51,099 nt of DNA, taken from contig SKMN01000008.1 of the NCBI GenBank assembly GCA_007121015.1, forward strand, positions 1-51,099, in the 5' to 3' direction. Below the pieces are notes generated by a model. That model was not told where the DNA came from. It searched no databases and was given only the letters and a program-made list of their open reading frames with translations. Made by a program: the position numbers and the translations under genes. Positions 34,443 to 38,567 of this stretch are shown piece after piece. Source of the DNA: Coriobacteriia bacterium (GTDB lineage: Bacteria > Actinomycetota > Coriobacteriia > Anaerosomatales > SLCP01). The stretch's first letter is position 1. Each line of letters begins with the position of its first letter.

Positions 34443-35096
34443 TCACACCGTGACGATCACGTACCCGTCGCGTACCGTGACCGGGTAGGTCTTCACGTCG
34501 GCGTCTGGGTGGTCGGTGGTCCCGTCGCGCACGTCGTAGCGCCATCCGTGCCACGGGCAGATGACGGTGTGTCCCTCGACGAACCCCTGCCCGAGCGGGC
34601 CGAACGCGTGGCGACAGACGTTCCCGAGTGCATAGAAGTCGTTTTCCACGCGCGCCAACGCGACCTCACGTCTGCCGATCCGAACCGTCCTCACCGTGCC
34701 ATCCGGGAACGATTCGACGCGCGCCACCGGAACATCGGCGGGCCCCTCGGGTACATCGATGACCCCATGCAGCTCGCTTCCGTCCTCGACATCGTGGAGG
34801 ACGAACAAGCCACACCAACATTTACGGAGCTTGGCGAACTGGTCGGCGTAGAACGGGATACACGGACAGACGACCTTGAGGTCCTCCTTGGGGTCACCCG
34901 TGCGCACCCTGCACGGGCAGTAGACATCGCCCGTTTGGTCGAGGATCTCCAACTCGCTCGAGAGCACCTCGTCGACGAATTCGGTGTCGTCGTTGAACAC
35001 GTAGCCGAGCTGAACGACGAACGGTGTCATGTACGCCTTGAGATCCTCTATCGTCGTGCCTTCGTGAAAACGCTGCCGGGGAGCCGGGGTGCTCAC
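34443..35096 (-). CDS. Ferredoxin-thioredoxin reductase catalytic domain fused to a Rieske domain
   Basis: 217 residues. Residues 1-105 match the FTR catalytic beta subunit, with cysteine pairs CPC (60-62), CPC (77-79) and CWC (93-95). These would hold a 4Fe-4S cluster next to a redox-active disulfide. Residues about 120-217 form a Rieske 2Fe-2S domain with Cys161 and His163 in CRHAFG and Cys180 and His183 in CPWHGW. The Rieske module could deliver electrons to the FTR site in place of ferredoxin. The GTG start overlaps the glutaredoxin stop (GTGA), so the two are co-translated. The likely partner substrate is that glutaredoxin. Confidence 0.88.
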   Translation of the reverse strand: MSTPAPRQRFHEGTTIEDLKAYMTPFVVQLGYVFNDDTEFVDEVLSSELEILDQTGDVYCPCRVRTGDPKEDLKVVCPCIPFYADQFAKLRKCWCGLFVLHDVEDGSELHGVIDVPEGPADVPVARVESFPDGTVRTVRIGRREVALARVENDFYALGNVCRHAFGPLGQGFVEGHTVICPWHGWRYDVRDGTTDHPDADVKTYPVTVRDGYVIVTV

Positions 35097-35338
35097 GGAA
35101 GCAACAGCTCCTTGATCCGCTTCTTATTGAACCCGACGATCACCTCGTCGTTCACTACCACCACAGGAAACGACGTGCCCCCTGAGAGACGTTTCACCTC
35201 GGCGACTGCCGACTCCTTCTCCTCGCCTTCAAGGCTGTCGACCTCGGTCAACTCGTATTCGACACCCGTCTCATCGAGGAATTTCTTCGTCATCCGACAG
35301 TAAGGGCACGTCGAGAGCGCGAACAGTGTGACACGCAT
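35093..35338 (-). CDS. Glutaredoxin-like protein
   Basis: 81 residues of thioredoxin fold with active site CPYC (STCPYCRMTKKFL) and the cis-Pro region GTSFPVVVVNDEVIVGF. ATG at 35338 follows AAGGAGG. An upstream in-frame ATG at 35401 adds unrelated sequence. It is encoded directly ahead of, and overlapping, the FTR-Rieske gene, so it is likely the thiol carrier reduced by that protein. Confidence 0.93.
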   Translation of the reverse strand: MRVTLFALSTCPYCRMTKKFLDETGVEYELTEVDSLEGEEKESAVAEVKRLSGGTSFPVVVVNDEVIVGFNKKRIKELLLP

Positions 35339-35470
35339 CCGTTCCTCCTTCTGGCATGCTTGGGACCAGGTCGTCCACGACCCTTGCGTTGTTTGTTCCA
35401 CAACCTGCCATCATCCCAACGACCGCCCTGCCGAACGGGTACAAGCCCAGTGTGACCTGAGGAGGCGATC

Positions 35471-36748
35471 GTGGGGACCGACGACACCGTTGCTGCGTGC
35501 ACGGAGCCGCTGACCCGCCGCCGCGTCGTCATCGCGGGCGGGGGATACGGCGGCACCACCACAGCCGTGCGGCTGGCGCGCTCGCTCAAACCCTCCGACG
35601 ACCTCGAGATCATGCTCATCGAGCCCGACCCATGCCAACAGGCGCTCTCCGAACTCGACCTCGTGGCCGTGGGTCCGTCCCGGCCGGAATTCTGCGAACT
35701 GTGGCACCCGACCGTCTTCCGGGACCTGCCGGTGACGGTATGCTACAACCGCCTCGAAGACGTTCACGCCGAGGAGCGTGCGATCACGGTAGGACACCGT
35801 GACGACGACGGCCAGCGCGTCGAGTACTGGCGGCTCGTGCTCGCCACCGGCGCCATCGCGTTCGTGCCGCCGGTACCCGGGCTGGCCGAGCACGCCATCA
35901 CGATGTGGTCGGTCGAGGACGCGCAGGAGCTCCAGCGCCGCGTGGAAGCCGCGTTCAAGCAGGCGGCGCGGTCGCCCCACGCATCGGAGCGTCAGCGCGC
36001 GCTCAGCTTCACCGTCATCGGTGGCGGCGCCACAGGAGTGGAGATCGTCGGTACGCTCGGACAGATGCTGCCCCACCGCGCGATCGATGCCGGGCTCGAT
36101 CCGGCCGACCTCAGGGTGCGCCTCGTCGAAGGACGGCCGGAGATCCTCTACGACCTGCGCCCGGGCCAGAGAGCGCGGGCCGCTGCACGACTGAAGCGCA
36201 TGGGAGTCGAACTCGTGTTGGGCTCGATGGTCGAACGTGTCGAGGACTCCGAGGTGGTCTTGGAATCCGGTGACCGGGTCGACGCAGCGGTGCTGGTGTT
36301 CTGCGGCGGCGCGAAGGCCGACCCCGACGCCGTGAAGTGGGGACTGGAGTTCGACAGCTCGGGCAGACTCCTCTGCGACGAGTGCCTACGCTCCCCCGCC
36401 CACCCGGACGTCTACGTGATCGGCGACCTCGCGGCGTTCCGCGACCCCGCGACGAACCGGACGTTACCGATGCTCGCGCAGTTCGCCATCGCCGAGGGAC
36501 ACCACGCCGCCGCCAACCTGCTGCGCGAGGCTCGTAGGGAACCGCCCGAGCCATTCCGCCCCCGGATGCGCGGGGAGTTCGTGAGCGTGGGGCCGCGCTG
36601 GGGCGTTGGCTGGATGTTCAACGTCGACCTCTCCGGTATCCCCGCGATCGTCATGAAGCGCATCACCTACGTGAAGTACTGGTACTCGGTAGGCGGTTTC
36701 CGCCTGGCGTGGAAACGCCTGCGAGAGATGCTCGCGATGGCCCGATGA
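35471..36748 (+). CDS. ndh: Type II NADH dehydrogenase (NDH-2) family
   Basis: 425 residues of the two-dinucleotide-binding-domain flavoprotein family. The FAD motif is GGGYGG near residue 24, and the NAD(P)H motif is GGGATG (about 178-183). The C-terminal FAD contact is VYVIGDLAAF. The C-terminus is amphipathic (YWYSVGGFRLAWKRL), fitting peripheral membrane binding. NDH-2 transfers electrons from NADH to menaquinone without pumping protons. GTG follows GAGGAGG. The next gene encodes a multiheme nitrite reductase-like protein, so a menaquinol-linked chain is plausible. Confidence 0.88.
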   Translation: MGTDDTVAACTEPLTRRRVVIAGGGYGGTTTAVRLARSLKPSDDLEIMLIEPDPCQQALSELDLVAVGPSRPEFCELWHPTVFRDLPVTVCYNRLEDVHAEERAITVGHRDDDGQRVEYWRLVLATGAIAFVPPVPGLAEHAITMWSVEDAQELQRRVEAAFKQAARSPHASERQRALSFTVIGGGATGVEIVGTLGQMLPHRAIDAGLDPADLRVRLVEGRPEILYDLRPGQRARAAARLKRMGVELVLGSMVERVEDSEVVLESGDRVDAAVLVFCGGAKADPDAVKWGLEFDSSGRLLCDECLRSPAHPDVYVIGDLAAFRDPATNRTLPMLAQFAIAEGHHAAANLLREARREPPEPFRPRMRGEFVSVGPRWGVGWMFNVDLSGIPAIVMKRITYVKYWYSVGGFRLAWKRLREMLAMAR

Positions 36749-36854
36749 GGGCGGACGCGACAGGTCGAGGCCGGACACCGTGGCTCGCCGCAGTTGCGCG
36801 GTCCGCCGATTCCAGGTAGTTCTTTCTATACACCGACAACAAGGGGGTCGAGCG

Positions 36855-38567
36855 ATGCCACGGATGCGGAATGTCCCTGCTTTCCTGCTGGTGCTCGGAG
36901 TCATGGTATTCGCCGCAGCCGGCTGTGCCGGCGTCACCTACGATAGCCCTGCCGTCGTCGCAGCACGAGCTGAGTGTGGCGAGTGTCATGCCGAGGCGAT
37001 CGAAGCAGTGGCCGCGGGGCCTCACGCCGACGCCGGCTGCGCGTCCTGTCATGCTGACGCGACCGCGCACGCGGCGGACCCCGAGAACGTGCGCGCGGTA
37101 ATCGAGTGGCGCGTCGACGGGTGCGCACAGTGCCACAGTGCCACTGCGGCGATGTTCCTCTACGACGACAACCTCAAGGTCGGCCCGTTCGGAGGCTCGC
37201 AGCGCGAGCCGGCGATACACAAGATCGACGAGTTCCCCGAGTATCACACCATCATCGCCGGGCACGGCTTCGTCAGGGACTACCGGGAAGAAGGGGCGCA
37301 CCTCTGGGCCCTCGAAGAGCACTACGACACCCTGCGCGCGAAGTACGAGACGTGCGTACAGTGCAAGTCCACGAAGGTCGCATGGGCGTGGCACACGGAC
37401 ACTCCACTCACCGTCCCAGCGGATACCCAGGTAACCCTCACGCATACCGCTACCGCAGACGAGCCGGCGCGGACGGTCGACATCCCTGCGGGCACCGTGG
37501 TCTCGCTCGCCACCGACTTCCAGAGCCATGAAGTGAGCGCGAGCGCAGTCTTCCCCGACGGGCGCACGTTCACCTCCCCGCCGTCGGAAGAGTACGATCC
37601 CGCCGAGCACCGGGACATGCTCTGGGCAGCGACGATCGCCACCACCGAGGAGACGATGCCCTACGGCATGGGCTGCAACCACTGCCACGACCCGCATAGC
37701 GGCTCCTTCCGTCTCATACGAGCGGCTATGCTCGAGGCGATCGACACCGGCGGTGTCCACGGCCAGGGCGGGGTTAACCCGTACGACCCCGAGACCGTCT
37801 ACGATGTGGCGGAGGCATCTCACAAAGACCTCGAAACGCTCCTGTGCGCGCAGTGCCACGTCGAGTACACGTGTGGCAGGAGTGGGGTCGACGGGGCCGT
37901 CCGCGACCACTACGGGTGGGCGAAAGCAGGTGACCTGCACGAGCACTACACGAGAGAGTTTGGTTACGCGCAGGACTGGACGCATGCGATCATCGGCGAG
38001 CCGCTCATCAAGAGCCAGCACCCCGAGGTCGAACTGAGCTGGAACAGCGTCCACTACGATGCCGGCGCCACCTGCGTGTCGTGCCACATGCCACGCGTGC
38101 GGACCGCATCCGGCGAGTGGGTGCGCAGCCATTGGATGACAAGTCCCTACAAGTACCACCACACCGACGCGTACACGGCGTTCGCTGAAGCCGTCGGACT
38201 GCAGCCGACCTTGCGGACCGGTCCGTGCGCAACGTGTCACACGGACCGCGTCGGAGAAGCGATCGACGGACAAGTCGCCGTCTACGAACGGCAGCAGACC
38301 GTGCAGGCCCTGCTCGCCCGATCGGTGAGCGTACTCGGCCAGGTCCGCCAGGCGGTGGATGCAGGAGCGGACGTCGACGAACGGCTGCACCGGGATGCCG
38401 TCGGACACCACCAGAGGGCGCACGTGCTCTGGGAGAACCTGATCGTCTCCGAGAACTCGATGGGCTTCCACAACTTCGCCGAGGTCTTCGATGCCATGGA
38501 CGATGCCGAAACACACGCGCGAGAGGCGATCCGCCTGGGACGCGAAGCCCTGCCGAGCGAGGAGTGA
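36855..38567 (+). CDS. Octaheme cytochrome c nitrite reductase-like lipoprotein
   Basis: 570 residues with a lipoprotein signal (AAAGC, Cys24) and eight heme c sites: CGECH 41, CASCH 62, CAQCH 90, CVQCK 167, CNHCH 274, CAQCH 331, CVSCH 407 and CATCH 458. The CxxCK site marks the catalytic heme of NrfA and octaheme nitrite reductases. VEYTC provides Tyr338-x-Cys340, the pair cross-linked in Thioalkalivibrio-type octaheme enzymes, and SQHPE supplies the catalytic His389. A Thr-rich insert (about 185-250) separates hemes 4 and 5. It probably reduces nitrite (or hydroxylamine or sulfite) to ammonia on the outer membrane face. ATG at 36855 follows AAGGGGG. Confidence 0.88.
   Translation: MPRMRNVPAFLLVLGVMVFAAAGCAGVTYDSPAVVAARAECGECHAEAIEAVAAGPHADAGCASCHADATAHAADPENVRAVIEWRVDGCAQCHSATAAMFLYDDNLKVGPFGGSQREPAIHKIDEFPEYHTIIAGHGFVRDYREEGAHLWALEEHYDTLRAKYETCVQCKSTKVAWAWHTDTPLTVPADTQVTLTHTATADEPARTVDIPAGTVVSLATDFQSHEVSASAVFPDGRTFTSPPSEEYDPAEHRDMLWAATIATTEETMPYGMGCNHCHDPHSGSFRLIRAAMLEAIDTGGVHGQGGVNPYDPETVYDVAEASHKDLETLLCAQCHVEYTCGRSGVDGAVRDHYGWAKAGDLHEHYTREFGYAQDWTHAIIGEPLIKSQHPEVELSWNSVHYDAGATCVSCHMPRVRTASGEWVRSHWMTSPYKYHHTDAYTAFAEAVGLQPTLRTGPCATCHTDRVGEAIDGQVAVYERQQTVQALLARSVSVLGQVRQAVDAGADVDERLHRDAVGHHQRAHVLWENLIVSENSMGFHNFAEVFDAMDDAETHAREAIRLGREALPSEE

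Follow-up and report, generated by a model that had tools for sequence, protein, structure and literature searches.

How would electrons reach a disulfide reductase whose catalytic domain is joined to a Rieske domain, and which protein would such an enzyme serve? The question is raised by two overlapping genes in a contig of a Coriobacteriia bacterium of the order Anaerosomatales (SKMN01000008.1, positions 1 to 51,099; this whole stretch of 51,099 nucleotides is called the window below). One gene encodes a glutaredoxin, and the other encodes a protein in which the catalytic domain of ferredoxin-thioredoxin reductase (FTRc) is followed by a Rieske domain. We consider it likely that this fusion belongs with the disulfide reductases of the FTR and FDR (ferredoxin:disulfide reductase) type and contains its own one-electron relay, in which the Rieske domain takes the place of rubredoxin.

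Organization of the locus

The features of the locus are collected in Table 1. The coordinates, strand, lengths, and GTGA overlap of the two genes were read from the sequence exactly as a first-pass annotation of this DNA had given them, the overlap being one of 4 nt with the glutaredoxin gene ahead of the fusion gene. Since a strong ribosome-binding-like sequence precedes the glutaredoxin gene and none is obvious ahead of the GTG of the fusion, the two genes are likely to be translated in a coupled manner.

Table 1. Features of the fusion locus in the window
Feature	Coordinates	Strand	Description	Basis
FTRc-Rieske fusion gene	34443..35096	minus	217 aa, GTG start	41 full-length relatives aligned
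Glutaredoxin gene	35093..35338	minus	81 aa, active site CPYC	PF00462
Ribosome-binding-like AAGGAGG	35344..35350	minus	~6 bases ahead of glutaredoxin ATG	Direct sequence reading
FTRc catalytic domain	34776..35048	minus	Residues 17-107	Pfam PF02943
Interdomain linker	34734..34775	minus	Residues 108-121	dN/dS ~0.09
Rieske [2Fe-2S] domain	34446..34733	minus	Residues 122-217	Pfam PF00355, alignment, Foldseek

The fusion of the two domains in a single protein was borne out, as both Pfam domains are complete and all the motifs are present. The FTRc half matched PF02943 with E=1.6e-18 (67.2 bits; cut-off 22) and contains three CxC motifs (CPC 60-62, CPC 77-79, and CWC 93-95). Taking the ligand roles to be those assigned in known FTR structures, we predict that C60, C77, C79, and C93 bind a [4Fe-4S] cluster and that C62 and C95 form the redox disulfide. 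All six cysteines (60, 62, 77, 79, 93, 95) were kept in the 42 aligned fusions, one of which has an in-frame TGA at C62. The third motif is CHC in plant FTR and CYC in FDR, where the central His or Tyr presumably assists catalysis; this position is held by Trp94 in the fusion, and CWC was found in 42/42 fusions.

The Rieske half matched PF00355 with E=2.4e-18 over residues 122-205 (66.3 bits; cut-off 20.3). Its CRH (161-163) and CPWH (180-183) motifs supply the ligands C161, H163, C180, and H183, which were unchanged in all 42 aligned fusions. By Foldseek, this half shares the fold of the soluble dioxygenase ferredoxins (5bok, E=2.7e-8). C161 and C180 are the only cysteines in the domain, so that it lacks the additional pair of cysteines found in high-potential Rieske proteins, which points to the soluble low-potential Rieske type. 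The AlphaFold model of the fusion was good overall (pLDDT 87, pTM 0.75).

A gene for a FAD/NAD-type oxidoreductase (Pyr_redox_2; 35471-36748, plus strand) adjoins the glutaredoxin gene in divergent orientation. This flavoprotein is a neighbour in 14 of 42 fusion loci, and its similarity to ferredoxin-reductase models was weak, with all matches below cut-off. The gene at 36780-38567, also on the plus strand, codes for a multihaem cytochrome c that belongs to PF02335, the cytochrome c552 (NrfA-like) family, and has a CVQCK site. In 21 loci (e.g., L059:5330-5701), the gene immediately ahead of the glutaredoxin encodes a membrane protein of ~123 residues whose family was not recognised; it was not seen in the window.

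Conservation of the fusion in Anaerosomatales

A scan of species genomes yielded 41 more full-length fusions at 60-88% identity. For a view of the class, 199 genomes were drawn, 69 of them from Anaerosomatales, the order of the window. PF02943 was present in 57 of these 69 genomes, and in the rest of the class it was absent from this draw except for one sub-threshold match. With one locus examined per genome, the CWC-type FTRc gene was fused to a Rieske domain in 57/57 cases, including one Rieske domain with HGR in place of HGW that was accepted by eye. Therefore, a frameshift or assembly artefact as the origin of the fusion, with separate genes in the relatives, was ruled out.

Against the nearest relative, dN/dS was 0.06 for FTRc, 0.09 for the linker, and 0.07 for the Rieske domain, or ~0.08 for the whole reading frame with the linker included. 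Judging from these ratios, the fusion is under purifying selection along its length, linker included; together with the ligand residues kept in the 41 further homologues, they mark it as a conserved arrangement, not a chance one. No plasmid record covered 80% of the query fusion, and a scan of viral contigs was empty. Among what was sampled, the fusion appears to be confined to one bacterial order, with the scan beyond Actinomycetota being one for exact peptides, which would miss distant fusions.

Five Anaerosomatales genomes (loci L104, L105, L106, L108, L109, L111) also have a second, longer FTRc paralogue, which contains CHC, bears a C-terminal extension of its own, and has no glutaredoxin upstream.

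A probable glutaredoxin partner

The glutaredoxin of the window matched PF00462 with E=3e-16 (59.8 bits; cut-off 22.9) and was the sole match to this family found in the genome. A glutaredoxin gene lies directly upstream in 40 of the 40 fusion loci with enough contig, and among the 57 Anaerosomatales loci examined, all those whose contig reaches far enough upstream likewise have it there. It also precedes FTRc in all 29 non-fusion loci from other Actinomycetota classes (L140-L168). Because it stands upstream of the fusion wherever there is room and has no second PF00462 member beside it in the genome, the glutaredoxin is the probable partner, as the first-pass annotation had proposed. From this arrangement, it is probably the protein that the fusion recharges.

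The same annotation had described the pair as a self-contained thiol-reducing system. This is too strong, since the Rieske domain would still need an outside electron donor and no donor reductase was consistently linked in the loci compared, the flavoprotein occurring in the minority of loci given above. An NADPH thioredoxin reductase is also present in this genome, so the fusion system would not be the sole thiol reductant.

Relatives with rubredoxin or separate genes

In the glutaredoxin-FTRc pairs of other Actinomycetota classes, most FTRc proteins carry a C-terminal rubredoxin and not a Rieske domain. One such FTRc-rubredoxin relative aligns end to end with PDB entry 4tpu, which we take to be the FDR of Methanosarcina acetivorans. 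The Rieske domain thus occupies the C-terminal slot that is held by rubredoxin elsewhere, and the carriers have been exchanged between lineages. The geometry of the cluster-binding loops of Rieske proteins resembles that of rubredoxin loops (PMC2946596). The earlier proposal that the Rieske domain replaces ferredoxin fits well with this result, since sister lineages have rubredoxin at the equivalent position.

The same comparison bears on two other readings of the Rieske domain. The first, also raised in the first-pass annotation, makes it a redox or oxygen sensor whose cluster state gates FTRc instead of passing electrons. It would suit an order whose cultivated members are obligate anaerobes (PMC9686372), and the FTRV subunit of plant FTR is thought to protect the cluster and not to carry electrons (PMC9025218). 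We nevertheless regard a sensor as unlikely, because another one-electron carrier sits in the same slot of sister lineages, every Rieske ligand is kept, and nothing that points to sensing was seen, a regulatory domain being absent. According to the second reading, an ordinary low-potential ferredoxin docks on FTRc as the real donor, and the Rieske domain serves to stabilise the protein in the manner of plant FTRV. Plant FTR does work without a fused carrier, and anaerobes contain abundant reduced ferredoxin, but a purely structural role is quite improbable for a domain in which the cluster ligands are conserved beyond the fold alone and whose parallel module elsewhere is a rubredoxin.

In genome G486, which is from a different class of Actinomycetota, the components are encoded by four separate neighbouring genes in the order Rieske, glutaredoxin (CPWC), FTRc, Rieske (L135:1667-2909). 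Its FTRc has 40% identity to that of the window. In a tree whose alignment was short and whose branches were long, it groups as the sister (98/94) of the fusions, which form a single clade (94/91). This separate-gene form, known from one short contig of a genome that is 81% complete, suggests a route by which the fusion arose. Further variants were seen among the rubredoxin-bearing relatives. The rubredoxin segment is doubled, nearly word for word, in L157, L160, and L163, and likewise in the cysteine forms L151 and L162. In L136:1918-2373 and L178, a rubredoxin-like segment lies N-terminal to an FTRc domain with a CWC motif, and the glutaredoxin is absent upstream.

Probable selenocysteine codons at the predicted redox cysteines

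One relative fusion, L038:6001-6639 (= L107), has an in-frame TGA at the position of C62, and tRNA-Sec is present in the same genome. This gene is probably a selenocysteine form of the fusion, as read from an assembly of low coverage (about 1.6x). A SECIS hairpin was sought after the TGA in a stretch that was a rough guess, and this stretch folded no better than shuffles (z=-0.02). Five FTRc-rubredoxin relatives (L147, L157, L160, L163, L164) have TGA at the equivalent of C95, the position that closes the third motif (CYU). Selenocysteine has been reported at both redox-active cysteines of an FTR among the GOS selenoproteins (PMC2398784). Since TGA hits exactly the two redox-cysteine positions, the codons support C62-C95 as the working disulfide and C60, C77, C79, and C93 as the cluster ligands.

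Proposed electron path

On the basis of what is known of the FTR family, we propose the following path for the relay. An outside donor would reduce the C-terminal Rieske [2Fe-2S] cluster one electron at a time, and the Rieske cluster would pass the electrons to the [4Fe-4S] cluster of FTRc. Two electrons, delivered one after the other by the latter, would open the C62-C95 disulfide, and the resulting C62/C95 thiol pair would then reduce the disulfide in the CPYC site of the glutaredoxin translated together with the fusion. Reduced glutaredoxin would in turn serve cytosolic targets, possibly including class III ribonucleotide reductase. What the sequences show directly is the domain architecture and its conservation, the linkage to the glutaredoxin, and the swap of Rieske and rubredoxin between lineages. 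The direction of flow, like the cluster types and the identity of the disulfide, is predicted from the family, and the two ends of the path, donor and final targets, are guesses on our part. One match to class III ribonucleotide reductase (NrdD) was found in this genome, and NrdD is a possible glutaredoxin target by analogy with work on the FDR of M. barkeri. The genome also has one further Rieske-domain locus.

The potentials deserve attention here. Soluble Rieske ferredoxins are typically near -150 mV and less reducing than a ferredoxin. Such a potential is perhaps marginal for a glutaredoxin disulfide, which would count against the relay, as do Trp94 at the His/Tyr position and the lack of a consistently linked donor reductase. 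If the flow were reversed, FTRc would take electrons from thiols, and the Rieske domain would deliver them to some external acceptor, e.g., an oxygenase or a different Fe-S protein. In favour of this, soluble Rieske ferredoxins are mainly known as oxygenase donors and the Rieske potential may exceed that of the disulfide. Such a reversal is nevertheless very unlikely, given that characterised FTRc-family enzymes reduce disulfides, that the loci compared showed no conserved oxygenase neighbour, and that those members of the order that have been cultivated are obligately anaerobic (PMC9686372).

A bolder version of the relay model, which we put forward tentatively and with more doubt than belief, is that the fusion represents a class of disulfide reductase that has not been described before. 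Through its fused Rieske domain, FTR chemistry and the glutaredoxin would be powered by a higher-potential pool (e.g., NADH with a Rieske-ferredoxin reductase) and would need no low-potential ferredoxin. Docking ferredoxin, fused rubredoxin, separate Rieske genes, and fused Rieske together suggest that FTR-type disulfide reductases can exchange one electron-entry module for another, and they raise the question of what potential is really required for [4Fe-4S]-mediated disulfide reduction. The relay would also define a dedicated pathway of glutaredoxin reduction in widespread subsurface Actinomycetota.

Comparison with known systems

Selenocysteine-containing FtrB (NF041072; PMC2398784) belongs to the FTRc family and has selenocysteine at redox cysteines, like L038 and the FTRc-rubredoxin relatives. 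The window copy differs in having cysteines and no selenocysteine codons, and it scored 39.7 bits against this model (cut-off 160). The soluble Rieske ferredoxins of dioxygenase systems (5bok, 2qpz, 1fqt) are alike in fold and in lacking an extra cysteine pair, whereas the Rieske domain described here comes from an anaerobic order, is joined to a disulfide reductase, and had no oxygenase linked to it among the compared loci. The high-potential respiratory Rieske protein differs by the extra cysteine pair that the fusion lacks.

Plant and cyanobacterial FTR shares the catalytic family PF02943 and the six-cysteine pattern. However, the fusion has CWC where FTR has CHC, the catalytic His of which is missing, and it is linked to a glutaredoxin instead of a thioredoxin and bears a Rieske domain. 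A gene for FTRV, which is exclusive to oxygenic phototrophs (PMC9025218), is absent beside the fusion.

The FDR of M. acetivorans (4tpu) is similar in consisting of FTRc with a one-electron iron carrier at the C-terminus. FDR reportedly reduces a glutaredoxin-like methanoredoxin. The M. acetivorans enzyme has also been reported to reduce a Trx (PMC6262447). The FTRc domains are distant, with residues 26-108 of the fusion matching 4tpu at E=2.8e-9, and the fusion has a Rieske [2Fe-2S] domain and a CWC third motif in contrast to the rubredoxin and CYC of FDR. The FTRc-Rieske fusion was not found by sequence in the PDB, nor in the open-access literature that was searched. Within that literature, FTRc with a fused one-electron carrier was already known in the form of rubredoxin (4tpu), and the Rieske version is a new wiring of it.
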